Made by a program: the position numbers and the translations under genes
The notes under the pieces: generated by a model
What the model saw: only the letters and a program-made list of their open reading frames with translations
Told to the model about the DNA's origin: nothing
Databases searched by the model: none
In this document: piece by piece, positions 1 to 43,345 of the stretch
Layout of the letters: the number at the start of each line of letters is the position of its first letter
Numbering within the stretch: position 1 is the first letter of the stretch
Assembly (NCBI GenBank): GCA_017441265.1
Contig: JAFRYE010000009.1
Coordinates: 1 to 43,573, forward strand
Origin: Lachnospiraceae bacterium
GTDB taxonomy: Bacteria > Bacillota > Clostridia > Lachnospirales > Lachnospiraceae
DNA: 43,573 nt
Direction of reading: 5' to 3'

Positions 1-2112
1 AACCAGGCCGGTGATGGAAGCCACGGCTGCCTGCCAGGTACCCCAGCCGAGCGGAGCGAAGATCCAGGCGATGCCGCTGCCGATCTTCGCCAGGATGGAC
101 ATGTCAAGCTCGTCCTCCGCCAGCATCCGGAAGCCGTCCGGCGTGAAGCCGAAGTACGAGGTGAACCATACCAGGATCGTCGACAACAGGATGATCGTGC
201 CGGCCTTCTTGATGAAGGACCAGCCGCGCTCCCACATGGAGCGGAGCACGTTCTTCAGGGTGGGCATACGGTATGCCGGAAGCTCCATAACAAACGGCGC
301 CGGGTTGCCCGCGAAGATCTTCGTCTTCTTCAGGATGATACCGGAGACGATGATGGAAGCCATGCCGATGAAGTATGCCGATGTCGAAATCCACGCGCTG
401 CCGCCGAAGATCGCGCCGGCGATCATGCCGATGAACGGAACCTTCGCGCTGCACGGGATAAATGTCGTTGTCATGATGGTCATACGGCGGTCGCGCTCAT
501 TTTCAATGGTACGCGACGCCATGATTCCCGGCACGCCGCAGCCGACACCGATCAGCATCGGGATGAAGGATTTGCCGGAGAGACCAAATTTGCGGAAAAT
601 GCGGTCCAGAACGAACGCGATTCTCGCCATATAGCCGCACGCCTCGAGGGCTGCGAGCAGGAAGAACAGTACAAGCATCTGCGGAACGAAACCGAGCACC
701 GCGCCGATACCTGCGATGATACCGTCAAGGATCAGTCCCTTGAGCCAGTCGGCACAGCCGATATTGTCAAGAAGCGACTCCACCAACGAAGGGATGCCGG
801 GCACCCACACGCCGTAGTTTGAGGGATCAACGCCGCCCTCGTATTTTTCATAGAGTCCGATCGCCTCGTTCACGTCGTCAACGGACGCCGTCTCATCGGT
901 CTCCTCGAGAGTTTCCTCATCGACGAGCGTGTAGGGGATCTCCGTTGCGGTGAGCTGTCCCACAAGACCCTTGAGCGCCGCTGCGGCCGCTTTGGAATCG
1001 TAGTCTTCCGCCTCGGAGTCCATTGCGGCTTCCACCGCTTCGGTGTCTATGCCGTCCTCCTGTGCCTTCGCGATCAGGCCTTCGAGGATCGCATCGGTGT
1101 CGCCGTACTCTTCCTCGGCGTCCTCCGTGTCGCCGGAACCGATTCCCAAAAGGTGCCATCCGTCTCCGAAGAGTCCGTCGTTCGCCCAGTCGGTTGCCGG
1201 AGCACCCACGCCGACCATGGCGATCCAATAGATTAAGAACATAACAAGTGCAAAGATCGGAAGTCCGAGCCAACGGTTGGTTACAATCTTATCGATCTTG
1301 TCGGAAGTCGTCAGTTTTCCGACGTGAGACTTCTTGCTGCAGCCTTTGATCACGTCCGCGATATACACGTACCGGTCGTTCGTGATGATACTCTCGGCAT
1401 CGTCGTCAAGCTCCGCCTCGGCTGCCTGAATATCCTTCTCGATATGCTCGAGAGTAGCCTTCGGAATGTTGAGGCTCTCCAGGATCTTCTCGTCACGCTC
1501 GAAGATCTTGACTGCGTAGAAGCGCTGCTGCTCCTCGGGCATGTTGTGCACGACCGCCTCCTCGATGTGAGCAAGCGCATGCTCAACCGGTCCGGAAAAT
1601 GAATGCTGCGGCACGGCAGCCTTCCGCTCCGCCGCCTTCACTGCCGCGTCGGCAGCCGCCGAGATTCCGATTTCCTTGAGCGCGGAGATCTCGACCACGT
1701 CGCAGCCGAGGTTGGAAGCCAGTTTCTTCGTGTCGATCACGTCGCCGGCCTTGCTCACGACGTCCATCATGTTGATCGCGCACACGACCGGGATTCCGAT
1801 CTCGAGAAGCTGCGTCGTCAGATACAGGTTTCTCTCAAGGTTCGTGCCGTCAATGATGTTGAGGATGGCGTCGGGGCGCTCGTTCAGGAGGTAGTTTCTC
1901 GCAACGACCTCCTCCAGCGTATACGGAGAAAGGGAATAAATGCCGGGAAGGTCGATGACCGTGACGTCATTGTGCTTCTTCAGCTTGCCCTCTTTCTTCT
2001 CCACCGTGACGCCCGGCCAGTTTCCGACGAACTGGTTTGCGCCGGTCAGCGCGTTGAAAAGCGTTGTCTTTCCACTGTTGGGGTTGCCCGCCAGTGCAAT
2101 CTTGATTCCCAT
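1..2112 (-). CDS. feoB: Ferrous iron transporter FeoB (C-terminus beyond window)
   Basis: FeoB is a membrane protein that imports Fe(II), with a cytoplasmic G domain at its N-terminus. The 704 visible residues begin MGIKIALAGNPNSGKTT (G1), followed by DLPGIYSLSP (G3) and NMMD (G4). The helical GDI region and the membrane Gate regions follow, with the conserved GVGCGVPGIMASRT stretch and a later FIPCSAKVPF. The start is supported by an AAGGAAAGGACAA ribosome site just upstream. Roughly residues 320-430, after the first membrane segment, form a long acidic insertion rich in D/E that E. coli FeoB lacks. The gene is last of three in feoA-feoA-feoB. The reading frame is still open at base 1, so the last helices are not seen. 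Confidence 0.97.
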   Translation of the reverse strand, partial: MGIKIALAGNPNSGKTTLFNALTGANQFVGNWPGVTVEKKEGKLKKHNDVTVIDLPGIYSLSPYTLEEVVARNYLLNERPDAILNIIDGTNLERNLYLTTQLLEIGIPVVCAINMMDVVSKAGDVIDTKKLASNLGCDVVEISALKEIGISAAADAAVKAAERKAAVPQHSFSGPVEHALAHIEEAVVHNMPEEQQRFYAVKIFERDEKILESLNIPKATLEHIEKDIQAAEAELDDDAESIITNDRYVYIADVIKGCSKKSHVGKLTTSDKIDKIVTNRWLGLPIFALVMFLIYWIAMVGVGAPATDWANDGLFGDGWHLLGIGSGDTEDAEEEYGDTDAILEGLIAKAQEDGIDTEAVEAAMDSEAEDYDSKAAAAALKGLVGQLTATEIPYTLVDEETLEETDETASVDDVNEAIGLYEKYEGGVDPSNYGVWVPGIPSLVESLLDNIGCADWLKGLILDGIIAGIGAVLGFVPQMLVLFFLLAALEACGYMARIAFVLDRIFRKFGLSGKSFIPMLIGVGCGVPGIMASRTIENERDRRMTIMTTTFIPCSAKVPFIGMIAGAIFGGSAWISTSAYFIGMASIIVSGIILKKTKIFAGNPAPFVMELPAYRMPTLKNVLRSMWERGWSFIKKAGTIILLSTILVWFTSYFGFTPDGFRMLAEDELDMSILAKIGSGIAWIFAPLGWGTWQAAVASITGLV

Positions 2113-2152
2113 GTTGTTGTCCTTTCCTTAGTTGCCCTGAGGTAACCCCGGG

Positions 2153-2383
2153 TCACAAAAAATACTCAACCAAAATCATCTCTGCATCTTCCTTACGCAG
2201 ACTCAGTTCATACCCGCGCACCGTCACCTCGATCGGATCTCCGAGAGGGGCAACTTTACGCACATAGACCGTAACACCGCGGGTGATTCCCATGTCCATG
2301 ATCCGGCGGCGGACCGCTCCCTGGCCGTTGAGGCGGATCACAGTCGCGGTTTCCCCGATTCCCACTTCGCGCAATGTCTTCAT
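2153..2383 (-). CDS. feoA: FeoA-domain protein (proximal to feoB)
   Basis: This is a 76-residue SH3-like FeoA protein, expected to act in the cytosol with FeoB in Fe(II) uptake. The family pattern is clear: MKTLREVGIGETATVIRL, then RRRIMDMGITRGVTVYV, then PLGDPIEVTVRGYELSLRKEDAEMI. A ribosome site (AAGGAAGT) precedes the ATG. It lies 40 bases upstream of feoB and is certainly co-transcribed. The related upstream gene (2451-2663) also encodes a FeoA domain, so the operon has two. Confidence 0.95.
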   Translation of the reverse strand: MKTLREVGIGETATVIRLNGQGAVRRRIMDMGITRGVTVYVRKVAPLGDPIEVTVRGYELSLRKEDAEMILVEYFL

Positions 2384-2743: not shown

Positions 2744-2783
2744 GTCCGTTTTCGCAAGTTTTCGGAAAGAAGTATTCATTTTC

Positions 2784-2826
2784 CGAACAATGTTCGCTTG
2801 ACGCATTCCGTTTCGTAGCGTATAAT
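2784..2826 (+). promoter_or_regulatory. Promoter of the DtxR-type regulator, with adjacent palindrome
   Basis: TTGACG (2798-2803), 17 bases, TATAAT (2821-2826) forms a strong sigma-A promoter on the plus strand. Immediately before the -35 lies the palindrome CGAACA-A-TGTTCG (2784-2796). It resembles half-sites of a LexA box, but the spacing is one base too short for that, so an autoregulatory or other repressor site is equally possible. Confidence 0.7.
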
Positions 2827-3333: not shown

Positions 3334-3371
3334 TTCTCTTGATCTTGACAACGCTTCTTCGGAAAATGCGG

Positions 3372-5123
3372 TTATTTTCCCGCGTACTCCGGAATCCTGC
3401 TCAGATCAAATATCTTTCCGACGATCATGTACGCCTCCGTATTGTCCTCGGGAACCGCTTCATAGAACACGTCGAGGAAGTCCTTCGCGGTAGCGTTTTT
3501 GAACGCATTGCGCCGAACATACTCGCGCAAAATGCCGTACCAGGTTTCTGTGCCGACGCTGTCCTCCAGAAGCTTGAACGCTCTGCGTCCGGTTTCGTAG
3601 ATACTGGCAATGTATTGATATTCTTTCGCGTACTCGTAGCAGGAGCGATTTAACGGGAGATGTCCGGCATCGATCCAGCTGTCCAGCAATGTTTCTCTCA
3701 GGATTTCGGCCGAATACTGATCCATCGGGAGTACCAGCCCGTTATCAAATCCTACATAGTCCTCATACACTCGTTCCGTGTACGACGTTAAGGATTCGTC
3801 CATCCAGGGTTCAAGTCCCGAGTTGCTGCCCACGATTCCCATGAACCACTGGTGACCGATCTCATGGGCAACGCAGATTTCCATCCCCTCGTAGCTGAGT
3901 TTTGGATCTTCCTCAGGACCGCGCTCGATCGGCTCACAGTATTCGCTTGTGATTATGATCAGGTTCGGATACTCCATACCGCCGGCCGCGATCGGAGCGT
4001 AGATGATGTCCAGCTCCTCGTAAGGATAGCGTCCGAACGCCTGGCCGAAAGCCTCCAAAGAGTCCTTTGCGCACTGCAGCGTCACTTTCACGCACTCATC
4101 CATCTTGTCCGCCGGAGGGTTTTTCCCGTTGTAATACACATTGATGCGAACCCCGTCGTACGTCCCGTCCGCCGCGGCAAAGCAATCCGAAGCACAGAAC
4201 ACGAAGCTTCGAACGCACGGCGCCTTCAATGTGTACGTCGTGGTTCCGTTGACCGTCTGCTTCGAACTCTCCGTTCCGGACGATGCCACAAGGAACCCTT
4301 CGGGAACCGTGATGCGGACATCGAAATCGGCGATCTCCGAGTAGAAGCACTCGCCGGAAATGACAAATTTCTCGTGGGACCACGCACCGTTCACATACTC
4401 CGCAAGAACCGGATAAAAGCTGGTCACATTGTAGATCCCGTCGTAATAGCCGTAGCGGTCCGCAAGATTCGGGATCTTCGCCGTAAAATCATACGTCAGC
4501 GTCATTTTTTCATTGGGCGCCAGCGGTTTGGAAAGCGCAAGCCAGAGCACGGATACGTCGGTGTCCCGCTCAAACGTGAGCGCGGAACCGTCTCTGCCGT
4601 CAAGGATCCCCGTGATCTCCGTCATCGCAGCGTCAGCCTTGACTTCCTTCGGATCGTAGCCGACCGTCTTTCCGTCAGTGAACAGGCTCGAGTAATCTCG
4701 CATGCACAGTTTATCCCAGACATCCGTCGAATCATTCCAAAACGTGAACACGACATGACCGACTACGGTATTTTTGTCCGTATCCAGTTTCAGATCCATG
4801 TCGTAGTGATACCGCTCTCCCGTCGGAATATCAATCGCGCACCCTTTTTCCGGTGCCTGAAAGCCCGTAGGTGTCGGTGTCGCGGGAACCTCCGTCGGCG
4901 TGGGCGTTGCCGGGATCTCCGTCGGCGTGGGCGTCTCCGTCGGTGTGGGTGTTGCCGGAATCCCGGTCGGTGTCACCGGGGGCTCCTGCTCCGGCGTTGT
5001 CACGGCGGGCATCCCCGTCGGTTTTTCTTTCGAAGTGTTATTGTCCGTCTTTCCGCAGGCCGTCAGGAGCACGAGCACCAAAAGCATCACGGCAAGACGG
5101 ATCTGCTTGTTCATTTTCCTCAT
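3372..5123 (-). CDS. M1-family metallopeptidase lipoprotein
   Basis: This is a surface-anchored zinc aminopeptidase-like protein of 583 residues. The chosen start gives a signal peptide MRKMNKQIRLAVMLLV with lipobox LLTAC (Cys 23) and has an AAGGGGAA ribosome site; an upstream start at 5168 would spoil both. A Thr/Pro-rich linker (repeats of TPTPTE, about residues 35-85) leads to the M1 domain. That domain has GGMEYPN, the exopeptidase GxMEN-like motif, and the zinc site HEIGHQW near residue 420, with the third ligand in the following MDESLTSY segment. It probably trims peptides outside the cell. A good -35 TTGACA (minus strand, 5201-5206) lies upstream with a weaker -10. Confidence 0.88.
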   Translation of the reverse strand: MRKMNKQIRLAVMLLVLVLLTACGKTDNNTSKEKPTGMPAVTTPEQEPPVTPTGIPATPTPTETPTPTEIPATPTPTEVPATPTPTGFQAPEKGCAIDIPTGERYHYDMDLKLDTDKNTVVGHVVFTFWNDSTDVWDKLCMRDYSSLFTDGKTVGYDPKEVKADAAMTEITGILDGRDGSALTFERDTDVSVLWLALSKPLAPNEKMTLTYDFTAKIPNLADRYGYYDGIYNVTSFYPVLAEYVNGAWSHEKFVISGECFYSEIADFDVRITVPEGFLVASSGTESSKQTVNGTTTYTLKAPCVRSFVFCASDCFAAADGTYDGVRINVYYNGKNPPADKMDECVKVTLQCAKDSLEAFGQAFGRYPYEELDIIYAPIAAGGMEYPNLIIITSEYCEPIERGPEEDPKLSYEGMEICVAHEIGHQWFMGIVGSNSGLEPWMDESLTSYTERVYEDYVGFDNGLVLPMDQYSAEILRETLLDSWIDAGHLPLNRSCYEYAKEYQYIASIYETGRRAFKLLEDSVGTETWYGILREYVRRNAFKNATAKDFLDVFYEAVPEDNTEAYMIVGKIFDLSRIPEYAGK

Positions 5124-9625: not shown

Positions 9626-11075
9626 ACGTACCTCCGTCTTCCTGCGCTTCGCTCTGTCCGTCTTCCGTAAAATGAATCTCCAACACCATGCGCGTGTTCT
9701 CGTCCATGCGGAACGTCTCGCTCCCGCGGACTCCCGGAACCCACACGACCGTGCCCTCGTCCCACGTCAGTACCAGCGGGATACCGTCCCGCTCCGCCTT
9801 CGGAACCTTGCGATTGACCAACAGATCCTGCACCGACTGCGTCCTGCCGTCGCTCGTGATGACGATCCGGTCACCCGGCCGACGGGTTCTTACAACGCAC
9901 GCCTTGCCTATTTTATCATAATCAAACCATTTCGTACATGAATTTTTCGGAAAAATCTCGCATTCTTCCCGTTTGCGCACGGAAAATGACAGCACTTTCT
10001 CCGGTTCGCCCGCAAATCGCAGCCTCACGCCGCGCTCCAGCTCCCTGCGAGCCACCTCGTGCCGGCCCGCAAACCGGTCGAGAGGCGTCTCTTTCACGGC
10101 GATCTCCCGATACTCCCGCACAAGCGTCACACCGTACGGAAGCGAGAGTTCCGCCGAGACCGCGCCCTCGCACAGCCGCTCCAAAGCCGCCGTATGCACA
10201 TAGGTGAGATCCTGCCTGCGCCCGCACACCTCCGCCAGATACCGAAGCGCTACCTCCGGCCGAAGCGCTTCCGGGAGTTCCGAAAAGCCCGCCGCATCCA
10301 GGCGACGGTCGTGGATCAGCCGCCCGCATGCCTCGTCCGCCAGGGAATCCATGTAGCGCCGTACCGCCTCCAGACGCTCGCCGGCGCCGGCGATATTTCT
10401 CTGTGCCCCGGGATTGCACTCCGCCAAAAGCGGCATCACGCGATTCCGAAGAAAATTGCGCGCGCCCTCCTCGCCGTAGTTTGTCTCGTCCACGCAGAAG
10501 TCCTGTCCTCTCGCCGCAAGCTCCGCCAGGATGTCCGCCTTCCGGACGGACAAAAGCGGGCGGATCAGCACAAGCTCGGGATCCGCAAACGGCATGCTCT
10601 CCGACGAAATCCCCGTCAGACCCCGAAGTCCGCTCCCGCGGATCAGATTCCAGAGCACCGTCTCCGCGCGGTCATCCGCATGGTGTGCCACCGCGACGCG
10701 GTTGGCTCCGAACCGGCCGGCAATCTCCTCGAAGATCCGATACCGCACCGTGCGGCCGGCCTCCTCGATGCCGGTTCCCGTCTCCGCTGCGATCGCGGGG
10801 ACGTCGCGGGCTTCGACAAACAGGGGAATGTCCCGTTTTCCGCAGAATTCCCTGCAAAATGCTTCGTCCCGCGCCGCGGCCTCGCCGCGGATACCGTGGT
10901 TCACGTGGACCGCCGCCAGCGGAATGCCGAGCTCCTGCGTGATCTCCCGCAGAAGCAAAAGAAGGCACAGGGAATCGCTGCCGCCGGAAAAGCCGACGAT
11001 CACGCTCATGCCTTGTGCCAAAGTTCCACGCCGAAGCATCTGCTCTTTCACTTTTTTGAGAGCACTTGTTTCCAT
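9615..11075 (-). CDS. tilS: tRNA(Ile)-lysidine synthetase TilS
   Basis: TilS modifies the wobble C of the CAU-anticodon tRNA(Ile) to lysidine, so that the tRNA reads AUA. The N-type ATP pyrophosphatase loop SGGSDS is at residues 30-34 (VIVGFSGGSDSLCLLLLL), followed by HVNHGIRG and VAHHADDRAETVLWNLIRGSG. The C-terminal TilS domain ends LLVNRKVPKAERDGIPLV. Length is 486 residues with the ATG at 11075, which has GGAGAGAGG upstream; a longer open frame reaching 11255 has no such support and an Arg-rich leader. It overlaps hpt. Confidence 0.96.
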   Translation of the reverse strand: METSALKKVKEQMLRRGTLAQGMSVIVGFSGGSDSLCLLLLLREITQELGIPLAAVHVNHGIRGEAAARDEAFCREFCGKRDIPLFVEARDVPAIAAETGTGIEEAGRTVRYRIFEEIAGRFGANRVAVAHHADDRAETVLWNLIRGSGLRGLTGISSESMPFADPELVLIRPLLSVRKADILAELAARGQDFCVDETNYGEEGARNFLRNRVMPLLAECNPGAQRNIAGAGERLEAVRRYMDSLADEACGRLIHDRRLDAAGFSELPEALRPEVALRYLAEVCGRRQDLTYVHTAALERLCEGAVSAELSLPYGVTLVREYREIAVKETPLDRFAGRHEVARRELERGVRLRFAGEPEKVLSFSVRKREECEIFPKNSCTKWFDYDKIGKACVVRTRRPGDRIVITSDGRTQSVQDLLVNRKVPKAERDGIPLVLTWDEGTVVWVPGVRGSETFRMDENTRMVLEIHFTEDGQSEAQEDGGTYGA

Positions 11076-11094: not shown

Positions 11095-11439
11095 CTACGG
11101 CGCCGGGGTCGGCGTCGCCGTCGGCGTGATATCGCCCGGTCGGAAAATGATCTCGTCCCCGTAGACAAGTCCCAGCCGCTCCCGCGCGATCTCCTCCAGA
11201 TAGCCTCGCGTCTGGACATACGCTCGATACTCCTCGATCGTAGCCGTGCGCTCATGCTCTCTGGCGATCTCGAGGATCAGTTTCTGCTTCTCCGCGAGTC
11301 GCTGCTCGTACTTGTCCTGCGCCGAATGGCGCAACACGAGAAATACCGCCGAAAGCACCATCACGATCAGAAAGAAAATGACCGCCGTGACCGCGCGCTT
11401 TCCCAACCGGTAATTCTTCGGAACGATACCCTTCTTCAT
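11095..11439 (-). CDS. divIC: DivIC/FtsB-type septum formation initiator protein
   Basis: This is a small bitopic cell-division protein that stabilises the divisome together with FtsL. Of 114 residues, about 1-15 are cytosolic and basic and about 16-37 form the membrane helix (AVTAVIFFLIVMVLSAVFLVL). An extracytoplasmic coiled coil follows (KYEQRLAEKQKLILEIAREHERTA in two parts), then the family end region ARERLGLVYGDEIIFRPGD. The last ten residues are a TP-rich tail (TPTATPTPAP) not normally found in DivIC. The position between rqcP and tilS supports the assignment. Confidence 0.9.
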   Translation of the reverse strand: MKKGIVPKNYRLGKRAVTAVIFFLIVMVLSAVFLVLRHSAQDKYEQRLAEKQKLILEIAREHERTATIEEYRAYVQTRGYLEEIARERLGLVYGDEIIFRPGDITPTATPTPAP

Positions 11440-12210: not shown

Positions 12211-12252
12211 CGCGGAAAATAAGGGAAAAATCAAGGTTTTTCGGCATTTTCC
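12211..12252. terminator. AT-rich nested hairpin after the 185-residue membrane protein gene
   Basis: GGAAAATA...CATTTTCC forms an outer stem (GGAAAAT/ATTTTCC) around an inner GAAAAA/TTTTTC stem. It lies downstream of the gene at 12280 and upstream of hup. One arm is an exact copy of the window-wide GGAAAATG word (12245-12252), the other a one-base variant. Confidence 0.4.
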
Positions 12253-27035: not shown

Positions 27036-27328
27036 AAAAAAATACAGCTCCCGCCTTGTATAAAGACGAGAGCTGTTACGCTTCGTGGTACCACTTTATT
27101 TCGCATATTGCTATGCCTCAGCGACTGCGGAGCACCCGGAAAATGAGTGTCTCGACAGCCTCGCGCGCTAACGGGCGCACCCGGCGGAACCTAAGCGCCA
27201 TCGCGCCTCGCCCCCGCGGCTCCGGGACCATGTTCCCGATATCGTTCCCCGTGTCCGTTCTCAGCTTCCCGGATTCTCTGTAGCGGATTCGTATCGATAC
27301 TCTTCCCTTCATCGCCGACCTATGGAAT
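27036..27328 (-). promoter_or_regulatory. T-box riboswitch leader of metG, Met specifier
   Basis: The leader reads, 5' to 3', GATGAAGGGAAGAGTA (AGTA region of stem I), CAGAGAATCCGGG, then GGGAACATGGTCCC with a candidate AUG specifier (27229-27231). Next come the T-box sequence AAAGTGGTACCACGAAG (TGGTACCA at 27086-27093) and a terminator hairpin ACAGCTC.../...GGGAGCTGT with seven Ts (27037-27076). T-boxes read uncharged tRNA; an AUG specifier fits the following gene. Transcription should continue into metG when tRNA(Met) is uncharged. A copy of the GGAAAATG word (27138-27145) sits between stem I and the antiterminator. Confidence 0.88.
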
Positions 27329-27381: not shown

Positions 27382-28944
27382 TCAATCTTCGTTCAGTCTT
27401 CTCTTTAAAGCACTGCTGAAATCGATCAGCTCGCGAAGGTTTTCGTCGGCCAGATCAACTTTCCAGTTGAGATAGCCGCTTGCATCGAGCGTTCCTGTGA
27501 GCCTTCCGTTTGCCTTCTTCATCACATCGGAATGAGCCCCCGTAAAATAGACAATGTCCTTCCACTCATTCCGGGCCTTCTCCTCCGTCGCGGCATTTCC
27601 GTTCGCATCAACGATGAACTGGATCTCTCCGTTGGCGATCACAACGGTAAACTTTGCGCCTACGGGAGCGTCGATTTCCGGATCCACTGCGATTTTTTCC
27701 GCAGCCGCGATACACTCATCCAGCATACTGACATCCGTGGACATCCGGCTCTTCTCAACATATGCCTTGTAGGCCGGGAATACCGCATCTGCAATCTGTG
27801 TGAGGCTTCTGGTATCGGACGGAGCTGCCACCGCGAACGTACCGGGCTCCAGACGGAATTGAAGATTGATGTTGCCGATCTTTGCCGCCGTATCCGCAGG
27901 CAGCAGAACACCGGTCTTCACGGTGTAACCGGTATCGTCCGCAACAACGCTGATCGTCGTCTCGGACGGATCCTTCGTCGATTTGGAAAATGATTCCGCC
28001 GCCTCTTCAAGGAGTTTCGAAACCTCGGTGACCGTGCGATCCGCCGTTTCTTCCGTCGCCCCGGCAAAGCCGAAAATGCTGAACGGAGAAAGTTTTGCCT
28101 GCGAAAGTTTCTCGCCGATGATCTTGTCGTAATCCTGCTTTTTCACCTCTTCGAACATTGCGGCAAACTGTTCGGGCTTTACTTCGTCCGCCGCGTATTT
28201 TTCGACGATCGCGGTCAGCTCATCCTCGTAGCTTTCGAACAGTCCGGCCATATACTTGTTCCAGTCGATCTTTCCGAGCTTGTCCGGAACGTCCGACATC
28301 TCGGTCATAATATTCTTAAGCTCGGCGTCCGAAAACTCCTTCAGTGACGTGAACATGCGGGCGTAATCTTCGTTGGTCTTCACGATAACCTTGTAATCGC
28401 CGTCCTCGCCTTGCGTCTGCAGCCCCTTGATCATCTTCTCAAAGAATCCGAAGAAATTGCTGTTATTCTCGCTCGGAATGATAATGTCCATAATACCTTC
28501 CGGCAACGGGATCTCATACCATCCGTCCAGTTTCGCGCCCTCGACTTTCGTCGACAGCAAACTGCCGTTTTCCGGGAACAACGCTGCCAGGTTGATGTAC
28601 GCCTTGTTGCCGGTGATCCGGAACAGTTCCGCCGAGATAATCTTATTCTCGACGCCCGCTCTCGCCGTCGCATAGTCAAGGCCTATGGACGTCTTCTTGC
28701 TGTCCCTGTCATACACGATGTCCAACGCAACGGAGATGGTCTCGTTTCCCGCGATGTTGCCCTCGATATGAAGCTTGCCGGCTTTTGTATTCCGCATCGC
28801 CTCCATCATCTCCGGGATCGTGCCCTTCACGATCGCGGGCTTCTCCGATTCCTTCTCTTTTTTCTTTTTATCTCCGCAACCGGCGAGCAGACTCGCGATC
28901 AGGCAGAGCATCAAAAGTATTGCCGTAACCTTTTTTGTTCTCAT
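27382..28944 (-). CDS. Lipoprotein of unknown function
   Basis: The 520 residues have signal peptide MRTKKVTAILLMLCLIASLLAGC with a clear lipobox (Cys 23) and a Lys-rich spacer (DKKKKEKESEK). A long mature part has alternating strand-rich and helical regions, with segments such as KLHIEGNIAGNETISVALD, DGWYEIPLP and later NINLQFRLEPG. The pattern of repeated amphipathic strands resembles LolA/LppX-type or DUF-type cell-surface lipoproteins, but I do not recognise the family. AAGGGGG precedes the ATG and the promoter at 28991-29019 is strong. Confidence 0.8.
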   Translation of the reverse strand: MRTKKVTAILLMLCLIASLLAGCGDKKKKEKESEKPAIVKGTIPEMMEAMRNTKAGKLHIEGNIAGNETISVALDIVYDRDSKKTSIGLDYATARAGVENKIISAELFRITGNKAYINLAALFPENGSLLSTKVEGAKLDGWYEIPLPEGIMDIIIPSENNSNFFGFFEKMIKGLQTQGEDGDYKVIVKTNEDYARMFTSLKEFSDAELKNIMTEMSDVPDKLGKIDWNKYMAGLFESYEDELTAIVEKYAADEVKPEQFAAMFEEVKKQDYDKIIGEKLSQAKLSPFSIFGFAGATEETADRTVTEVSKLLEEAAESFSKSTKDPSETTISVVADDTGYTVKTGVLLPADTAAKIGNINLQFRLEPGTFAVAAPSDTRSLTQIADAVFPAYKAYVEKSRMSTDVSMLDECIAAAEKIAVDPEIDAPVGAKFTVVIANGEIQFIVDANGNAATEEKARNEWKDIVYFTGAHSDVMKKANGRLTGTLDASGYLNWKVDLADENLRELIDFSSALKRRLNED

Positions 28945-29079: not shown

Positions 29080-29144
29080 AGGACGAAATCATCATTTTCC
29101 GAAATATCCGATGCTTCGAAAAACGACCGAAAGGAGTCGCGCCG

Positions 29145-29997: not shown

Positions 29998-30073
29998 CAT
30001 ATAGGAAAATGCGCGTATGCGGTAACATGAGACAAGCGATTCATTTTCAGATAAATACGGATCGGAAATTTGG

Positions 30074-30199: not shown

Positions 30200-31768
30200 A
30201 TGTTATCATTTCTACTGTTTGACGATCTGACCTCGGTAGCAACCCTGGTGCTGATCGCAATCGCCATCGTCGCCGTACTTATCTTTATCGCCGGCTACGT
30301 TAAGGCTCCGCCGGATATGGCATACATCATTTCCGGTATGAAACACAAGTCCAAGGTAGTCATCGGACGCGCTTCCTTCCGCTTCCCGTTCTTCGAGCGT
30401 ATGGATAAGCTGAATCTCCGTTTGATCCCGATCGACGTTAAGACCAGCAACGCCGTTCCGACCGCAGACTACATCAACATCAACGTTGATGCAACTGTCA
30501 ATGTCAAGATCAGTAACGAGCCGGACAAGCTTCGCCTCGCTGCCGAGAACTTCCTGAACAAACCCACCGACTATGTCGCTGCCGTAGCGCGCGAAGTGCT
30601 CGAAGGTAACGTTCGTGAGATCGTCGGTAAGATGAAGCTCGAAGAGATGGTTTCCGATCGTCAGAAGTTCGCTAACCTCGTTAAGGAAAATGCGGAGCCC
30701 GACCTTGCGGCCATGGGTCTCGACATCATCTCCTTCAACGTTCAGAACTTCGTGGACGGCAATGAAGTCATTGAGAACCTCGGTATTGATAATATCGTAA
30801 AGATCAAGAAGGCTGCTGCGATCGCACGCGCCGAGTCCGAGAGAGACATCAAGGTTGCTCAGGCTGCTGCGGACAAAGAGTCCAACGATGCAGCGGTTCT
30901 GGCGCAGACCGAGATCGCAAAGAAGCAGAACGAACTCGCCATCAAGAAATCCGAGCTGCAGCTCGATGCCGACACCAAGAAGGCTATGGCCGACGCGGCA
31001 TACGAGATCCAGAAGGAAGAGCAGCGTAAGACGATCGAGATCACGACGGCCAATGCTAACATTGCCCGTCAGGAGCGCGAGATCGAATTGCAGGAGAAGG
31101 CCGTAGCCGTTAAGGAACGCGCCCTCGAAGCAGAGATCAAGAAACAGGCCGAGGCCGACAAGTATGCTGCACAGCAGAAGGCCGACGCCATCCTGTACCA
31201 GCGTCAGAAAGACGCAGAGGCTAAGCAGTTTGAGGCACAGCGTGAAGCTGAGGCTCGCAAGGCGCAGGCAGCTGCCGATCGTTTTGCAAAAGAGCAGGAA
31301 GCTGAAGGTATCCGCGCCGTAGGTGAGGCAGAGGCTAAGGCCATCGAGGCCAAGGGTCTTGCCGAGGCTCAGGCGATGGAGAAGAAGGCTGAGGCGTACG
31401 CGAAGTACAACAAGGCCGCAGTTGCCGAGATGATGATCCGGGTTCTTCCCGAGATCGCCGCTCAGGTTGCTGCTCCTCTTCAGCAGATTGACAAGATCAC
31501 GATCATCGGCGGCGGCGAAGGCGGCACGAACGGTGTTGATCAGGTGGCCGGCAACGTGCCCGTAGTAATGGCTAAGGTGTTTGAGTCCATGAAGCAGGCA
31601 ACCGGCATCGACCTCGCCAACATCATCAACGCCGAGTCCTACGACGCTAAGGTGAACCGCAACATCAACGTGACCGGACTTGAGAACGCAACGACCATCG
31701 TTACGGACGGCAAGACTGTCGCGGGCGCTGCGGAAGGCAACGAGCCGATTCTCCCGGCAACGGAGTAA
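30200..31768 (+). CDS. Flotillin-like protein (SPFH/band 7)
   Basis: Flotillins organise membrane microdomains. The 522 residues have one N-terminal membrane segment (about 12-34, VATLVLIAIAIVAVLIFIAGY) and an SPFH domain (about 35-200, with PPDMAYIISGMKHKSKVVIGR read in two parts). A long Ala/Glu/Lys-rich coiled coil follows (about 215-420) with GEAEAKAIEAKGLAEAQAM, then a Gly-rich C-terminal tail. The ATG at 30200 has AAAGGGGG; an upstream in-frame start at 30128 is unsupported. It matches FloT/YuaG-type proteins, but no NfeD-like partner gene is adjacent. Confidence 0.92.
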   Translation: MLSFLLFDDLTSVATLVLIAIAIVAVLIFIAGYVKAPPDMAYIISGMKHKSKVVIGRASFRFPFFERMDKLNLRLIPIDVKTSNAVPTADYININVDATVNVKISNEPDKLRLAAENFLNKPTDYVAAVAREVLEGNVREIVGKMKLEEMVSDRQKFANLVKENAEPDLAAMGLDIISFNVQNFVDGNEVIENLGIDNIVKIKKAAAIARAESERDIKVAQAAADKESNDAAVLAQTEIAKKQNELAIKKSELQLDADTKKAMADAAYEIQKEEQRKTIEITTANANIARQEREIELQEKAVAVKERALEAEIKKQAEADKYAAQQKADAILYQRQKDAEAKQFEAQREAEARKAQAAADRFAKEQEAEGIRAVGEAEAKAIEAKGLAEAQAMEKKAEAYAKYNKAAVAEMMIRVLPEIAAQVAAPLQQIDKITIIGGGEGGTNGVDQVAGNVPVVMAKVFESMKQATGIDLANIINAESYDAKVNRNINVTGLENATTIVTDGKTVAGAAEGNEPILPATE

Positions 31769-31838: not shown

Positions 31839-31962
31839 CGGTCGACGGCCGCCGGTGCGGTCATTTTCCGAAAAATAGTTTTTGGCTTGAAACGCAACCG
31901 TCCGATAGACTGAACCTATGGAAAGCGCGGTAAAAAAGGAATCCCTCCGCCGTCGAAAACTG

Positions 31963-31991: not shown

Positions 31992-32054
31992 AGTAAATCA
32001 TGGGTAAAACCCGGAAACCGCCGCGGAAAATGCGGTCAAGGAGGTATTGAGACA

Positions 32055-33502: not shown

Positions 33503-35028
<1,526 letters not shown>

Positions 35029-35092: not shown

Positions 35093-35129
35093 CTTATCTT
35101 CTTCGTATTCTCTTTCTTCGGAAAATGAC

Positions 35130-36179: not shown

Positions 36180-37046
36180 TCAAACGTCGGACCGTTTGTT
36201 GAATCTCTTGCGTCGCTCGGTCGAAAGCCGCATCATTTCGCGCATGCGGTCGCGGTTGCCGGTCTTGATGCAATCGTACAGCTCTTCGAAGCACGCGCGG
36301 TAATCGTCCATTTCCCGAAGGAGCGCGTCGCGGTTCGCGAGGAACAGCTCGCTCCACATCTCGTCATTGATGTTCGCGATGCGGGTGAGGTCCCGGAACG
36401 AGTCGCCGGTGTACCGCTCCAGATCGGGCTCGTCGCACGCGCACATCAAAGAGACGGCGATGCAGTGCGTCAGCTGCGACAGAAACGCGATCATCCGGTC
36501 ATGGCTCTCCACATCCAGCACGGAGATGTCCTTGCACCCGAGGGTCTCGCCCAGCGCCTTGCACATCGCGATCCCCCGCTCCGTGTTGGCCTCCGTCGGC
36601 ACCACGATGTAGTTCGCTCCGCGGAAAATGCGGTCGTCACTGTACTCGATACCGCTGGACTCGCGCCCCGCCATCGGGTGCGCCGCAATGAACTCCACCC
36701 CTGCGGGAAGCATCTCCTGAATCTGCCGGACCACACAGCCCTTCACGCCGGTCACATCCGTGATGATCGAGCCCGGGCGAAGCTTCGCGCCGTGCTCGCG
36801 GATCCAGTCTAAGAAAACATGGGGATACAGGGAAAATACGATCAGATCAGCATCGCGAAGAAGCTCTTCGTCGACGCTCGCGCTTCCCTTTTCGATCATC
36901 CCTCTCTCGACAGCGTAGTCGATGCTCGACTGCCGTCTCGTGATCGCCGTCACCCGGTAGCCCTGTCTCGTGAGCGCCGAAGCGTAACTGCCGCCCAAAA
37001 GGCCGAGACCGACGATACAAATTCTGGTGTTTTTATCCAAAAGCAT
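36180..37046 (-). CDS. tyrA: Prephenate dehydrogenase
   Basis: This enzyme oxidatively decarboxylates prephenate to 4-hydroxyphenylpyruvate for tyrosine. The 288 residues start with the NAD-binding fold ICIVGLGLLGGSYASAL, then VTGVKGCVV, FIAAHPMAGRESSGIEYSD (given in part) and LTHCIAVSL. There is no ACT or chorismate mutase domain, so it is the simple Bacillota form. GGAGGAG precedes the start. Confidence 0.95.
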   Translation of the reverse strand: MLLDKNTRICIVGLGLLGGSYASALTRQGYRVTAITRRQSSIDYAVERGMIEKGSASVDEELLRDADLIVFSLYPHVFLDWIREHGAKLRPGSIITDVTGVKGCVVRQIQEMLPAGVEFIAAHPMAGRESSGIEYSDDRIFRGANYIVVPTEANTERGIAMCKALGETLGCKDISVLDVESHDRMIAFLSQLTHCIAVSLMCACDEPDLERYTGDSFRDLTRIANINDEMWSELFLANRDALLREMDDYRACFEELYDCIKTGNRDRMREMMRLSTERRKRFNKRSDV

Positions 37047-37057
37047 ACAAGCTCCTC

Positions 37058-37528
37058 CTATAACAGCTCTTCCATTCCGATTTTCTGCGGCTTCATTCCC
37101 ATCGCCTCATAGAAGCGGATCGCGTTGGGATTGCAAGCCCACACGTTCAGCGTGATGCTTCCGCACTTCTGCTCTTTCGCGGCCTCTTTCACATACTCAT
37201 AAAGCGCCCGTCCGACGCCCTTGCCGCGAGCCGCCTCGTCGACGCAGATGTCATCGACGTAAAATGTGCGGCAGTCCTGCAGGATCTTATGTCCCTTAAG
37301 TTCCTTGATCTGGCAGAACGCATGTCCGAGCACCTGCCCGTCCTCGACGCACACATACACCGGGCTTTTGTCATCGGCCAAAATCTCCGCGAGCTCCTCC
37401 TCCGTGTACTTCGTCACCGGTCCCCGGAAAATGTCGGGGCGCCCGTTGTGATGGACCATATCCACCTGAACGAGAAGCTTCATGATCGTCGGAATGTCTG
37501 CATTTTCCGCTCTTCGAATCGTATACAT
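37058..37528 (-). CDS. GNAT-family N-acetyltransferase
   Basis: This 156-residue acetyl-CoA-dependent transferase begins MYTIRRAENADIPTIMKLL. It has YVCVEDGQVLGHAF, the CoA-binding stretch DEAARGKGVGRALYEYV, and LNVWACNPNAIRFYEAMGM. GGAGG five bases before the ATG at 37528 decides the start over longer in-frame options. It lies between aroA and tyrA with gaps of 20 and 11 bases, so it is part of the aromatic operon. Its substrate is unknown and its place there is unexplained. Confidence 0.92.
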   Translation of the reverse strand: MYTIRRAENADIPTIMKLLVQVDMVHHNGRPDIFRGPVTKYTEEELAEILADDKSPVYVCVEDGQVLGHAFCQIKELKGHKILQDCRTFYVDDICVDEAARGKGVGRALYEYVKEAAKEQKCGSITLNVWACNPNAIRFYEAMGMKPQKIGMEELL

Positions 37529-38775: not shown

Positions 38776-40016
38776 ACCGAACTCCCCTCCTGCGCCGTGA
38801 TCTGCGCAGCCACCGCCTCCGGCGATCCGTCCGCCGCGATATGCACATCGCAGGTCGCTCGGTAGATCGGCTCTCTCTCCGCGAACCGCGCCTCAAGCGC
38901 CTTGCGGTCCGCCGACAGCGGTCTTCCGTCAAATGCCGTGATCTTCTCGATCGGCCGATCCAGCCAGAAAAGCCTGCCGTTGCTGCGGAGGGCGGCGACA
39001 TTTTCCGCACGGAGCACCGCTCCGCCGCCGGTCGCCAGCACGATTCCTCCCTGCGCCGAAACTCTCCGGATCACATCCGCCTCAATCTCGCGGAAGCCGG
39101 CCTCGCCTCTCTCCCGGAAAATGGTCGGAATGTCGGTCCCGCTCTCCCGGACGATCACATCGTCGGTGTCGACAAACTCCCGTCCGAGCTGCTTTGCCAG
39201 CATCCGCCCCACCGTGGTCTTGCCCGCGCCGGGCATCCCCGTCAGAACGATCGACTCCTTCTGCGCGAGCAGCTCGCGGTAGACGCGCTCCGTGTCCTCC
39301 TGCGGGACAGTGCCGCCCACGAACAGCTCCGCCGCTGCCGCCGCCTGCGCAACGAGCATGTACAACCCTCCCGTCGCGGGAATCCCCCGCTCTTTCGCCG
39401 CCAGCACAAGGCTTGTGCGAAGCGGGTTATAGATCGCGTCCACGACTCCGCAAAGCTTCGGAAAACGAGCGACGTCGATCGGGCTCACCCCACCGTTCGG
39501 GTACATCCCGACGGGAGTCGCGTTTATGATGATCTCCGCGTCCGAGTGGTTCCCGTACGCTTCTTCGTAAGTGATACAATTGTCTTGTTTTTTTCTGGAT
39601 ACGCGGAAAATGCTCCCCGCTCCCATCGCGGTTGCCACCGCGGTCGCCGTCTTCGACGTTCCGCCCGAGCCCAGAATGAGAACCTTTCGGCCCGCCGGGA
39701 CGATACCCTCGCGCCGCAGCAAAGCCTCCATTCCGGCGAAATCCGTGTTGTCTCCGAAGAGCTTCCCGCCACGGTTTACAACGGTGTTGACCGCGCCGAT
39801 CGCAGCCGCCCGCTCACTGATCCCGTCGAGATACGGGATCACGCTCTCCTTGTACGGGATCGTCACGTTGATGCCGCGAAACTCCCGTTTGCGCAGAAAC
39901 TCCGTCAGCTCCTCCGGCTTCAACTCCCGCAACTCATACTCATATCCACACAGACGGGTATGAATCTCCCGCGAGAAGCTGTGTCCTAATTTTTCGCCGA
40001 TCAAACCGAATTCCAT
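38772..40016 (-). CDS. aroE/aroK: Shikimate dehydrogenase-shikimate kinase fusion
   Basis: One 414-residue protein carries two consecutive shikimate-pathway activities. Residues about 1-250 are AroE: MEFGLIGEKLGHSFS, INVTIPYKESV, GAVNTVVNR, the NADP loop ILGSGGTSKTA, and INATPVGMYPNGG. Residues about 253-414 are AroK: VLTGMPGAGKTTVGRMLA (Walker A), DTDDVI, and ATGGGAVLR. The two parts join without a linker of note (RELLAQKESIVLTGM). GGAGGACAGA precedes the ATG. Fusion channels the path from dehydroshikimate to shikimate-3-phosphate; the reading frame is unbroken. Confidence 0.95.
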   Translation of the reverse strand: MEFGLIGEKLGHSFSREIHTRLCGYEYELRELKPEELTEFLRKREFRGINVTIPYKESVIPYLDGISERAAAIGAVNTVVNRGGKLFGDNTDFAGMEALLRREGIVPAGRKVLILGSGGTSKTATAVATAMGAGSIFRVSRKKQDNCITYEEAYGNHSDAEIIINATPVGMYPNGGVSPIDVARFPKLCGVVDAIYNPLRTSLVLAAKERGIPATGGLYMLVAQAAAAAELFVGGTVPQEDTERVYRELLAQKESIVLTGMPGAGKTTVGRMLAKQLGREFVDTDDVIVRESGTDIPTIFRERGEAGFREIEADVIRRVSAQGGIVLATGGGAVLRAENVAALRSNGRLFWLDRPIEKITAFDGRPLSADRKALEARFAEREPIYRATCDVHIAADGSPEAVAAQITAQEGSSV

Positions 40017-40040: not shown

Positions 40041-41129
40041 TTAAACAAGTTTGCCGGCGCCCGCCAGCAGATCCGCGATCACGATTGCCGTCATCGCATC
40101 CACCACCGCGCGCACACGGTGCACGATGCAGGGGTCGTGGCGCCCCGCTGCCGCAAGGCGAATCTCCTCACCGTCCCGGAAATTCACGGTGTCCTGCTCC
40201 TTCCCGATCGTGGGCGTCGGTCGCACCGCGCATCGGAAAATGACCGGCATTCCGTTCGTAAGTCCTCCGTTGATGCCGCCGGCATTGTTCGATGTCGTCA
40301 CAACGCGGCCGCCGTCCATGCGGAACGGGTCGTTCGCATCGCTGCCGCGCATTTTCGCAAGGCCGAAGCCCGCACCGAACTCGATGCCCTTGATTCCCGG
40401 AACCGCGAACAACGCGTGAGCCAGCAGGCCTTCCACACTGTCAAAGAACGGTTCTCCGACGCCGGCCGGAAGCCCCGTCACCGCCGTCTCCAAAACACCT
40501 CCGACACTGTCCGCATCAGCCTTGGCCGCAAGGATCGCCTCCTGCATCGCCTCGCCGGCCGCCGCGTCCAGCGCCGCAAAATCCTTCTCATACAGCGACT
40601 CCAGATCCTTCACCAAAGCATCCCCGTCGCCGAACGAGCGGTCCGCAACTCCCGCGATCTCCGCGATGTGCGTACCGATGCGGATGCCCTTCGCCTGCAG
40701 CGCCGGAAGGACCAGCGCTCCCGCCGCAACAACCGCCGCCGTGATCCGGCCGCTGAAATGGCCGCCTCCCCGCGTGTCATTGGCTCCGCCGTAGCGGACA
40801 AACGCCGCGTAATCCGCGTGGGACGGTCTTGCGACCGACTCCATCGCCTTGTAATCCTTCGAGCGTGTATCCTCATTCGGAATCACGATACACACCGGTG
40901 TGCCCGTCGTGTGCCCCTCATAGACGCCGCTCTCGATCACGTAGCGGTCAGCCTCCCTGCGGGCCGTCGAGATCGCACCGCTCGGACGACGCATCGCCAG
41001 ACAGCGGTCGATGACGCTCTCCGAGACCGGAAGCCCCGCCGGCAGTCCGTCCACGACACACCCGATCGCCGGGCCGTGGCTCTCGCCGAAAATCGTAACC
41101 GAAATCGCATTTCCGAAAGAATTTTTCAT
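40041..41129 (-). CDS. aroC: Chorismate synthase
   Basis: This FMN-dependent enzyme makes chorismate from EPSP. The 362 residues show GNAISVTIFGESHGPAIG, RRPSGAISTARREAD, RPSHADYAAFVRYG, RGGGHFSGRITAA, and near the end KMRGSDANDPF and NAGGINGGLTNGMP. The ATG at 41129 has AAAGGAG at seven bases; an in-frame TTG two codons earlier is possible but less likely. Confidence 0.96.
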   Translation of the reverse strand: MKNSFGNAISVTIFGESHGPAIGCVVDGLPAGLPVSESVIDRCLAMRRPSGAISTARREADRYVIESGVYEGHTTGTPVCIVIPNEDTRSKDYKAMESVARPSHADYAAFVRYGGANDTRGGGHFSGRITAAVVAAGALVLPALQAKGIRIGTHIAEIAGVADRSFGDGDALVKDLESLYEKDFAALDAAAGEAMQEAILAAKADADSVGGVLETAVTGLPAGVGEPFFDSVEGLLAHALFAVPGIKGIEFGAGFGLAKMRGSDANDPFRMDGGRVVTTSNNAGGINGGLTNGMPVIFRCAVRPTPTIGKEQDTVNFRDGEEIRLAAAGRHDPCIVHRVRAVVDAMTAIVIADLLAGAGKLV

Positions 41130-41170: not shown

Positions 41171-42211
41171 CTACTGTTTCACAACTCTGGCTATCCGTCC
41201 GCGCAGCGCGTCCGCATCCATCGGTTCAAAGGAAAATGACCCCACCTCATCGCAGAGCACCGCCGTCACCCGGCTGCCGTCCGCCTTCTTGTCGTGCGCG
41301 CACAGCGCCAGCACCGCATCCGGGTCGCAGAGCGCCTCGTGGGGCAGTTCCAGTTTGTCAAGCACCGGCAGCAACCGCTTTCCTACCGCCTCGGAACTCA
41401 TCGCGACCATGCCGATCGCCACGCACTCGCCGTGGAGAAGCGTCCCGCCGCAGGCAAGCTCGATTCCGTGCCCGATCGTGTGTCCGAAGTTGAGCACCCG
41501 GCGCAACCCGCTCTCGCGCTCATCCTCCTCGACCACCCGTTTCTTTATCAGTATCGCCCGCTCACCGATCGCATCCGCATGCGCGAGCGGGTCCTCATTT
41601 TCAAATAAGGAAAATAACTCTTCGTCGCAGGTCAGCGACATCTTCAGCGCCTCTGCGATCCCGTTGGCCAGCTGCCGCTTCGGAAGCGTCGCCAGCGTGT
41701 CGTGATCGATGACCACCAGCTTCGGCGGGTAAAATGCCCCGACAACGTTCTTCACTCCCGCAAAATCGATTGCCGTCTTTCCGCCGACCGAGGAGTCCAC
41801 CTGAGAGAGCATCGTCGTCGGAATGTTGACCCAGTCGATACCGCGCATATACAGCGCCGCTGCCAGACCGGTCATGTCGCCGACCACTCCGCCGCCCACC
41901 GCGATCAGACGGTCTTTTCTCGTCGCCCGAAGCTTCACCAGCGTCTCCAGGATCTTCGAAAGCGATGCCATCGTCTTGTTCTCTTCTCCCTGCGGCAGCG
42001 TCAGAATCTCCGCGCGTCCGCACTTGCGAACAGCCTTAGCGACGGTCTCCGCATACACCTCGGGAACACCGTCATCCGTCACGATCAGCGACAACCGCTC
42101 CGGGTTGCTCGTCTCCGACGTACCCGCCAGAAGTTCGCCGATCCGCGCGAGCGCTCCCCGCTCCAAAACGATGTCATACCCACCGTCGCGGGTCTTCACC
42201 GGAATAACCAT
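41171..42211 (-). CDS. aroB: 3-dehydroquinate synthase
   Basis: This NAD- and metal-dependent cyclase performs the second step of the shikimate pathway. The 346 residues show LPQGEENKTM, AVGGGVVGDMTGLAAALYMRG (in part), IPTTMLSQVDSSVGGKTAID (in part), FYPPKLVVID, and the metal ligands in LNFGHTIGHGIE and LLHGECVAIGM. GGAGAC precedes the start. It lies 35 bases upstream of aroC and 45 after pheA. Confidence 0.96.
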   Translation of the reverse strand: MVIPVKTRDGGYDIVLERGALARIGELLAGTSETSNPERLSLIVTDDGVPEVYAETVAKAVRKCGRAEILTLPQGEENKTMASLSKILETLVKLRATRKDRLIAVGGGVVGDMTGLAAALYMRGIDWVNIPTTMLSQVDSSVGGKTAIDFAGVKNVVGAFYPPKLVVIDHDTLATLPKRQLANGIAEALKMSLTCDEELFSLFENEDPLAHADAIGERAILIKKRVVEEDERESGLRRVLNFGHTIGHGIELACGGTLLHGECVAIGMVAMSSEAVGKRLLPVLDKLELPHEALCDPDAVLALCAHDKKADGSRVTAVLCDEVGSFSFEPMDADALRGRIARVVKQ

Positions 42212-42256
42212 ACTACTGTCTCCTTTGTCGTCCGTACGCCGCCTTCCGGCGTCGTA

Positions 42257-43345
42257 TCACACTCTGACTTCCCTCTCATAACTGCCGAGCACCTTCAGGT
42301 CGTTGCAGCACGACCGAAGAGCATCCAGCATTTTCCGACCCTGCTCGCTCGCGATATTTCCCTCGCTCTCCGCGTAGAAATAATACTCCCACGCGAGCTC
42401 CTTGCGGGGCCGGCTCTTCAGCGCCAGCAGGTTGAATCCGTACTCGCCGATCACGTTGATCGCGCGCCCCAGGGATCCGGCCGCGTTGTTTACGGAAAAT
42501 AACATCAAAAACCGTCCGTCATCCGTCCCCGGCTCTCTCCGCTCCCGCGTGAACACGGCAAATCTCGTGGAGTTGTTGCTGCTGTCGTTGATGTGGCTCT
42601 CAAGCACCTTCAGCCCGAACCGCTCCGCAGCCTCGGCGCTGCCGATCGCCACGAGGTCATGCCGTCCGGCTTCCGCGACCATCTTCGCCGCCACGGCCGT
42701 GTTGACCGCCTCCGTCGTCGCAAACCCGTGCTTCTCGAGATACTGCGCACACTGCCCGAGCGCCTGCTCGTGGCTCACGACCGTCCTGACCTCGTCCATC
42801 GTCGTCCCTTTGACGGCGAGCAGGTTGTGCACGATCTCAACCTCGTAGACGCCGCTCACATATAATTTTCCGAAGTACGCAAGGTCCAGGACCCTGCCCA
42901 CGTCGCCGTTTAAACTGTTCTCAATCGGGAGCACCGCGCAGTCGCATCGTCCTTCCTCAACCGCCCGGTACGCCGCCGCAAAATCCGCGTACGGCATCGC
43001 CGTCGCATCCGGGAAGATCTTCTGCGCGGCGATATTGGCAAATGCCCCTTCCACGCCGCTGTACGCCACGCGCAGCCCGTCCATCAGCCGGTGCTGGTAT
43101 CTCTTCGAGATCCCGATGGTCTCCTTCAAAAAGCTCACATAGAACGGGCGGAGCGTCTCATCCTCGATGAGTCCGGCCTCCTCGCGGAGCATCTCCTCCT
43201 CCCGCGACCGATCCGTGATCGGCAGCCCGTGCGCCCTCTTGTACGCCGCAACCGTGCGCACTGCCTCCATCCGCTTTGTGAACAGCTTTGCCATCTCGCG
43301 ATCGGCCTCGCTGATAACCGCCCGCGCCTGCTCCAACTCCGTCAT
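42257..43345 (-). CDS. pheA: Bifunctional chorismate mutase/prephenate dehydratase (P-protein)
   Basis: This 362-residue fusion takes chorismate to phenylpyruvate. Residues about 1-90 are an AroQ-type chorismate mutase (ARAVISEADREMAKLFTKRM; SREEEMLREE). About 95-270 are prephenate dehydratase (YSGVEGAFANIAAQKIFP; LPIENSLNGDV; SSNNSTRFAVFTR). The end is an ACT domain (LMLFSVNNAAGSLGRAINVI) that normally binds Phe for feedback control. The ATG at 43345 has GGGTGG; the open frame continues upstream only through a tandem repeat and is not taken as coding. First gene of the aromatic operon. Confidence 0.95.
   Translation of the reverse strand: MTELEQARAVISEADREMAKLFTKRMEAVRTVAAYKRAHGLPITDRSREEEMLREEAGLIEDETLRPFYVSFLKETIGISKRYQHRLMDGLRVAYSGVEGAFANIAAQKIFPDATAMPYADFAAAYRAVEEGRCDCAVLPIENSLNGDVGRVLDLAYFGKLYVSGVYEVEIVHNLLAVKGTTMDEVRTVVSHEQALGQCAQYLEKHGFATTEAVNTAVAAKMVAEAGRHDLVAIGSAEAAERFGLKVLESHINDSSNNSTRFAVFTRERREPGTDDGRFLMLFSVNNAAGSLGRAINVIGEYGFNLLALKSRPRKELAWEYYFYAESEGNIASEQGRKMLDALRSCCNDLKVLGSYEREVRV

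Follow-up and report, generated by a model that had tools for sequence, protein, structure and literature searches.

A dispersed eight-base word enriched in one genus of Lachnospiraceae: a candidate DNA uptake sequence in Clostridia

Why does a single eight-base word, GGAAAATG, occur 39 times in a 43,573-bp stretch of DNA from a Lachnospiraceae bacterium (assembly GCA_017441265.1, contig JAFRYE010000009.1; hereafter the window)? An earlier note on this DNA had reported 39 exact copies, 23 on the plus and 16 on the minus strand, as far above chance, and had named uptake, recombination or segregation as possible roles. Our recount gave the same numbers (span 594..42336; GC content of the window 57.3%), compared with 2.03 ± 1.43 and a maximum of 6 in 100 dinucleotide shuffles. 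We estimate a probability of about 0.75 that GGAAAATG, in the fuller form C-GGAAAATG-[A/C], makes up the core of a DNA uptake sequence, which would be read by a competence type IV pilus and would be independent of the uptake signal sequence (USS) of Pasteurellaceae and the DNA uptake sequence (DUS) of Neisseriaceae. Among the three roles, uptake is favoured by the weak strand polarity of the word, by AddB-like genes in word-less genomes, by dialects among relatives and by loss of the word alongside a pilus motor, PilT2.

The enrichment extends over the entire genome (2,585,061 bp in 79 contigs), which holds 1,684 copies of GGAAAATG (881 + 803), one per 1.5 kb, against 37 (21 + 16) of the reversed word, a ratio of 45. 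Word statistics were obtained from a sample of this genome comprising L099–L118 and the window (437,210 bp, 367 called genes), to which the sample figures below refer unless another genome is named. The sample contains 268 copies, where Markov models of orders 2, 3 and 4 predict 22.3, 33.6 and 67.1, and at each of these orders the word is the 8-mer with the highest z-score. Coding copies number 189, compared with 22.6 ± 4.3 (largest 37) in 100 within-gene synonymous shuffles of the 367 genes. Both of the controls that the earlier note had proposed, Markov and codon-shuffled, thus lie far below the observed counts. Given 1,684 copies against 37 and the excess over either control, the genome-wide count is not close to the Markov expectation, nor is it explained by codon and dipeptide usage; the enrichment in this genome is real and larger than had been claimed. 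Perfect copies (268) also outnumber each of the 24 one-base variants, the largest of which reaches 103 and which sum to 792.

In the window, gene calls place 27 copies inside genes, 11 between genes and one across a gene start. Each line below is one copy of the word.

594..601, plus strand, coding
1594..1601, plus strand, coding
2777..2784, minus strand, intergenic
3361..3368, plus strand, intergenic
5112..5119, minus strand, straddles a called gene start
9981..9988, plus strand, in the TilS gene
11142..11149, plus strand, coding
12245..12252, minus strand, intergenic
15709..15716, minus strand, coding
15767..15774, plus strand, coding
15931..15938, minus strand, coding
17936..17943, minus strand, coding
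18183..18190, plus strand, coding
18223..18230, minus strand, intergenic, inverted relative to the copy at 18183
19864..19871, plus strand, coding
20967..20974, minus strand, in the MalQ gene
21158..21165, plus strand, in the MalQ gene
23066..23073, plus strand, coding
24907..24914, plus strand, intergenic
25331..25338, minus strand, in the MetG gene
26545..26552, minus strand, in the MetG gene
27138..27145, plus strand, intergenic
27985..27992, plus strand, coding
29093..29100, minus strand, intergenic
30004..30011, plus strand, intergenic
30685..30692, plus strand, coding
31862..31869, minus strand, intergenic
32025..32032, plus strand, intergenic
34745..34752, minus strand, coding
35120..35127, plus strand, intergenic
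36623..36630, plus strand, coding
37426..37433, plus strand, coding
37501..37508, minus strand, coding
38999..39006, minus strand, coding
39116..39123, plus strand, coding
39605..39612, plus strand, coding
40235..40242, plus strand, coding
41231..41238, plus strand, coding
42329..42336, minus strand, in the prephenate dehydratase gene

The variant counts given by the earlier note were recovered in the window (GGAAAATC 10, GGAAAATA 6, GGAAAATT 5), and three NGAAAATG variants total 13. Its extended form, CGGAAAATG[A/C], stands as a tendency, with C at −1 in 29 of 39 copies and A or C at +8 in 33 of 39. Similarly, all three reading frames are used, as it had stated, but unevenly, codon offset 0 accounting for only 13 of the 189 coding copies in the sample. 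The higher density between genes was correct in direction, but the window figures of 0.7 (genes) and 2.4 (intergenic) per kb exceed the 0.49 and 1.40 per kb of the sample, where the preference is 2.9-fold. Gaps between divergent, codirectional and convergent genes carry 1.87, 1.32 and 1.62 copies per kb. A regulatory site was rejected, as copies are not confined upstream of genes and their density is flat along genes.

The information profile of 266 sites comprises a weak, T-rich stretch from −6 to −2, C at −1 (161 sites), the eight bases of the word, and A (116) or C (95) at +8, with flanks outside about −6 to +9 contributing at most 0.07 bits per position. One-base variants inside AAAT (word positions 4–7) are not in excess in the sample (216 against 247 expected under Markov-2), whereas variants at the first three bases or the last base are: CGAAAAATG was found 61 times against 7.5 expected, CGTAAAATG 40 against 2.9 and CGGAAAATA 42 against 6.8. 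The word thus tolerates change at its edges but hardly within AAAT, much as the footprint of a protein would. AAATGTGA, which may extend the word on its 3′ side, is enriched too, with 21 copies against 2.9 expected in a sample of the genus mate G001 (L130, L171–L174) and 14 against 1.8 in one of G013 (L139, L218–L220).

Strong enrichment is restricted to this genus, represented here by 22 genomes, our own and 21 mates designated by G-numbers. Counts of GGAAAATG in the mates run from 221 (G006) to 1,763 (G011). As read from the count tables, the word outnumbers its reversed control at most about 4.4-fold in 39 relatives from outside the genus and at most about 7.7-fold (G158) in 290 other members of the class, compared with 45-fold in our genome. 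Within the genus, which MalQ identity splits into two clades, A and B, the word varies in form and in flank. A second form, GGCAAATG, counts 273 in our genome and 614, 622 and 438 in G013, G007 and G004, where GGAAAATG counts 491, 672 and 449; the ratio of second to first form spans 0.13 (G015) to 1.25 (G013). Position +8 is C in 83–84% of G007 sites (from just 12 and 19 sites), clade-B sites have A at +10 in 56%/49%, and C precedes GGAAAATG in 54–60% of sites in word-bearing sets against 30% in word-less sets. We read these forms, one base apart, and the flank shifts as graded dialects.

The word is also conserved between relatives, at about twice the level of composition-matched 8-mers. At matching loci of six clade-A genomes, it is intact in the partner genome in 288 of 541 aligned cases (53%), compared with 2,676 of 10,708 (25%) for 8-mers of the same composition, and it exceeds this control in all 30 ordered pairs, which are not independent of each other. 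When our genome was set against 16 relatives, most of them with far fewer sites, conservation beat the control in 14. Aligned copies in the six genomes lie opposite letters in 541 cases, a partial gap in 29 and a whole gap in only 4 (786 unaligned copies were set aside), and thus mostly change by substitution. Over 147 bins of 5 kb, word density rises with GC content (rho +0.37, P = 5e-6), whereas that of permuted words falls (rho −0.47). Scarcity of an AT-rich word in AT-richer DNA suggests that it builds up slowly in resident DNA and may be absent from recent arrivals.

Two genes of the window bear on exchange within the genus. MalQ of our genome is 88–92% identical to clade A and 69–78% to clade B. 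MetG (window 24975-26603) is 84–86% identical to G001, G008 and G017, all of clade B, 77–80% to clade A and 74–77% to other clade-B members. A clade-B-like MetG beside a clade-A MalQ indicates that genes were exchanged in the past among members of the genus, and recombination between the clades at MetG is likely, judging from these protein identities.

A series of genomes in which the word weakens links it to the pilus motor PilT2, a second, stand-alone PilT (C24:88649-89722 in our genome) that is 49–50% identical to PilT1 and has no pilus gene called beside it. PilT2 is found in 19 of the 22 genus genomes, with identities of 92–94% in clade A, 72–74% in the bulk of clade B and 60% in G012; the only three without it are G006, G016 and G018, which form one clade. 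Eight PilT2-bearing genomes exceed the Markov-2 expectation 4.5–6.4-fold for GGAAAATG and 4.8–9.4-fold for GGCAAATG. G006 and G018 are near expectation, at 1.3- and 1.2-fold for GGAAAATG and 1.1- and 0.8-fold for GGCAAATG, and their sister G016 is intermediate, at 2.1- and 3.3-fold (47-kb sample of a genome 80% complete). No word of comparable strength was found in 240-kb samples of G006 or G018, whose top z-scores are 6.3 and 8.7 against 42 in our genome. An unrooted tree built on three proteins, MalQ, MetG and one more, omits G013, G020 and G021; in it, (G016,(G006,G018)) falls within clade B at full local support. PilT2 and the word fall together, though as one event; because the tree is unrooted and MetG has been exchanged, loss is likelier than late gain but not the sole reading. 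As a side observation, CRISPR-array-like repeats top the raw 8-mer counts of G006 (L138, L168–L170) and vanish once nearby copies are counted once.

The genes that an uptake route would require are present. On contig C30, our genome carries a type IV pilus locus whose products are PilB, PilT, PilC, two major-like pilins, PilD, PilM, a PilN-like protein and additional pilins; apart from the matches to T2SSE, N_methyl and PilM_2, these names were assigned by position. PilT1 is 92–99% identical in 16 of the 21 mates, with a partial match in a 17th; the other four are less than 90% complete. ComEC was found in 20 of the 22 genus genomes (the two without it are 79–82% complete), a ComEA-sized HHH_3 protein in 21 (G020 has a short open frame) and N-methyl pilins in 17, including all 13 with at least 90% completeness and at most 5% contamination. 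In G016 (L240) and G017 (L238), comEC lies in two reading frames, which reflects either a true break or faulty assembly. Almost every genome of the genus, with or without the word, thus has pilus, ComEA and ComEC genes. The pilus locus itself (L100; C30:40001-53637 in our genome) is word-poor, with 1 copy in 13.6 kb, a lower GC content (0.47–0.54 per kb bin) and pilin genes that diverge fast. G012 carries an extra PilT-like gene (72% to PilT1) just upstream of PilT1 (G012:C126, L232), and 15 N-methyl pilin matches compared with five in most mates.

As to the reader of the word, the pilus locus encodes a FimT-like pilin (L100:9546-10043), followed by a larger pilin in a PilW-like position. The structure predicted for the homologue of the FimT-like pilin in Lachnoclostridium sp. 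UBA1781, which has the same sequence in G012 (mean predicted local distance difference test score 77.7, five sequences) matches chains of FimU, the Xcp pseudopilus and EpsH, with a best E of 0.01, none below 0.001 and TM-scores of about 0.4–0.5. This model suggests a family, not a function. We propose that a minor pilin reads the word; the locus encodes this pilin with a predicted FimU/GspH-like fold. All 10 word-bearing rows of a 13-row alignment of the FimT-like pilin have K or R just before the C-terminal TGK, where the three PilT2-less rows have T.

Of the other explanations, the one that survives best is a binding site for a genus-specific nucleoid-associated or chromosome-organising protein, which we nonetheless regard as unlikely. 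It would fit a word that is dispersed, nearly unoriented, conserved, present about once per 1.5 kb and divided into dialects. However, it predicts neither the scarcity in lower-GC DNA nor loss alongside a pilus motor, and the low mismatch tolerance of the AAAT core would be unusual for such proteins.

A shade less probable again is a recombination hotspot of the Chi type, recognised by AddAB or another helicase-nuclease related to it, which would stimulate repair irrespective of its location. Chi sites are short, non-palindromic and dispersed, as is this high-copy word, and AddB-like genes are present in 22 of 22 genus genomes, none above the curated cut-off. Yet Chi sites are strongly polar with replication. 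In 759,343 non-N bases of our genome, 283 copies run with the G-rich strand and 212 against it (57%, P = 0.0016), a weak bias that speaks for a Chi-like role; five clade-A mates sum to 104:86, and contig-strand counts are near balance (881:803 in our genome, near equal in most genus members). Permuted words of the same letters are co-oriented 3,871:1,794 (68%). The composition of the word thus predicts more polarity than is seen, an argument against Chi- or KOPS-like (FtsK-orienting polar sequence) signals, and a replication-oriented signal is disfavoured. AddB-like genes are also present in the two genomes at word background: the matches in G006 and G018 are near full length and give the two top scores in the genus, yet no comparable word exists there. 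Nor would a Chi-like role lead one to expect intergenic preference or scarcity in lower-GC DNA. By clade, AddB-like scores are 465–559 bits in clade A, where one match covers most of the model (own gene G000:C27:15776-19162), and 666–735 bits in clade B, word-less species included.

We consider a methylation or restriction motif, or a mismatch-repair bias favouring the word, very improbable. Non-palindromic words can be methylation targets, but restriction normally depletes its sites and does not enrich them, and a context-dependent mutation bias would not by itself produce both the 2.9-fold preference for intergenic DNA and the low density in lower-GC bins. An origin as scattered copies of a mobile or repetitive element would account for the high copy number, but was rejected with near certainty, since the flanks beyond about −6 to +9 carry little information and aligned copies face letters (541) and not whole gaps (4). 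A by-product of base composition, codon or dipeptide usage, to which the few-fold excess of the word over its reverse in many Clostridia could be credited, was dismissed with equal firmness, because Markov and synonymous-shuffle expectations fall far below the observed counts and the close relatives G006 and G018 are near expectation.

Several observations weigh against the uptake sequence that we favour. Spacing in the sample is random (coefficient of variation 0.95) and close pairs are not in surplus (8 gaps below 50 bp against 8.6 expected), whereas the spacing of USS and DUS is somewhat regular with some inverted pairs, according to the available part of PMC1626085. The same lack of surplus led us to reject terminator pairing of the kind found in Neisseria and Haemophilus. 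USS-like AT tracts do not flank the word. The C at −1 distinguishes word-bearing sets only weakly at GGCAAATG, with 54–71% against 50% of 28 word-less sites, and conservation relative to our genome is not above control in G003 (1/5) or G004 (0/5). The background copies of word-less G006 and G018 stand at 34:23, not far from the residual co-orientation of 283:212. The link to PilT2 comes from one event in one clade, of which G016 is 80% complete, and five N-methyl pilins, ComEA, PilB and PilT1 are all still present in G006, G016 and G018, as is comEC, although in G016 it occupies two frames; with ComEA, ComEC, PilB, PilT1 and pilins kept in G006 and G018, only part of the uptake route is missing. 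G017 is word-rich despite its apparently split comEC, and for this reason, together with a possible assembly error, the split was not used as evidence. Finally, a wider scan for receptor residues was negative and did not recover the FimT-like column (12 word-bearing rows, some possibly other pilins), and it found same-branch K/R losses in PilB, PilD, PilM, PilX, MalQ and MetG as well; the K/R column is therefore not counted as evidence.

Set against known uptake systems, a word recognised on uptake would have close parallels. The available part of PMC1626085 characterises USS and DUS by a density near one copy per kb, no orientation bias, a non-coding preference, a very strong consensus and a mutational origin. 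The present word resembles the USS in length (9 bp), in a density near one per kb without strong orientation bias, in being denser in non-coding DNA, in perfect copies exceeding each one-base variant (though not all of them together), in an origin by point mutation and in lineage-specific dialects. It differs in its unrelated core (neither AAGTGCGGT nor ACAAGCGGT), its host in Clostridia, the lack of AT-rich flanks and its random spacing without excess of close pairs. G016, with its weak word, recalls Haemophilus ducreyi, for which that source describes broken competence genes and weak words.

DUS dialects follow phylogeny within Neisseriaceae, and some members have no obvious word, as stated in the accessible portion of PMC3630211. 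Dialects, word-less members and type IV pilus genes are shared with the present case. The DUS is a 12-mer, compared with about 9 bases here, of unrelated sequence, and the word found here shows no close-pair excess. The twelve-base DUS has a CTG core and is read by the minor pilin ComP; neither strand of our core word contains CTG, and no search aimed at ComP itself was made. The modelled pilin is a weak match to FimU/GspH-type folds.

The machinery resembles the monoderm competence pilus in its pilus ATPase, pilins, ComEA and ComEC, and in a FimT-like pilin followed by a larger pilin in a PilW-like position. In that system, FimT/ComGD and PilW/ComGF bind DNA and PilW is dominant in pneumococcus, as reported in the available part of PMC12040237; the part of PMC8897410 at hand describes DNA binding by Legionella FimT via its C-terminal tail. 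What differs here is a PilT-bearing pilus operon together with a genomic word, no uptake word being mentioned for monoderm systems in that portion of PMC12040237.

Uptake words were limited to Pasteurellaceae and Neisseriaceae in 2006 (PMC1626085) and in 2013 (PMC3630211), as far as the available parts of these papers state, and a 2016 review names the same two families (PMC5031613). A screen of the Firmicute Veillonella parvula found no sequence of at least 10 bp at 100 or more copies and left shorter words open, according to the accessible part of PMC5397411. Among the matches listed in our search of the open-licence literature, none reported a Gram-positive uptake word, and none of those listed for the word itself was related.

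Under uptake by a competence pilus, a tip or minor pilin would bind word-bearing DNA, and pilus retraction, perhaps by the stand-alone motor PilT2, would pull it through the wall. ComEA and ComEC would then pass one DNA strand into the cell, where word-bearing fragments from conspecifics would recombine more often. Such biased uptake would spread chance point mutations that create the word and let it build up in long-resident DNA, and mutation would erode it where the uptake route is lost.

With less assurance than for uptake as such, we consider it on balance probable that this is a third, independently evolved code of DNA self-recognition and the first in a Gram-positive lineage, in which a pilus reads C-GGMAAATG, specificity drifts at one wobble base and in the flanks among sister species, and the word decays to background after loss of PilT2. 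Cells of this genus are not known to have an outer membrane. If the reading is true, uptake words evolve repeatedly and work without one, and a case in Clostridia bears on why such words exist, be it through receptor bias with drive or through the benefit of kin DNA. Across the 22 genomes the word grades naturally from strong through dialect-shifted and fading to absent, so that the order in which machinery and word were lost becomes testable. These little-studied bacteria would then exchange genes by kin-biased transformation.

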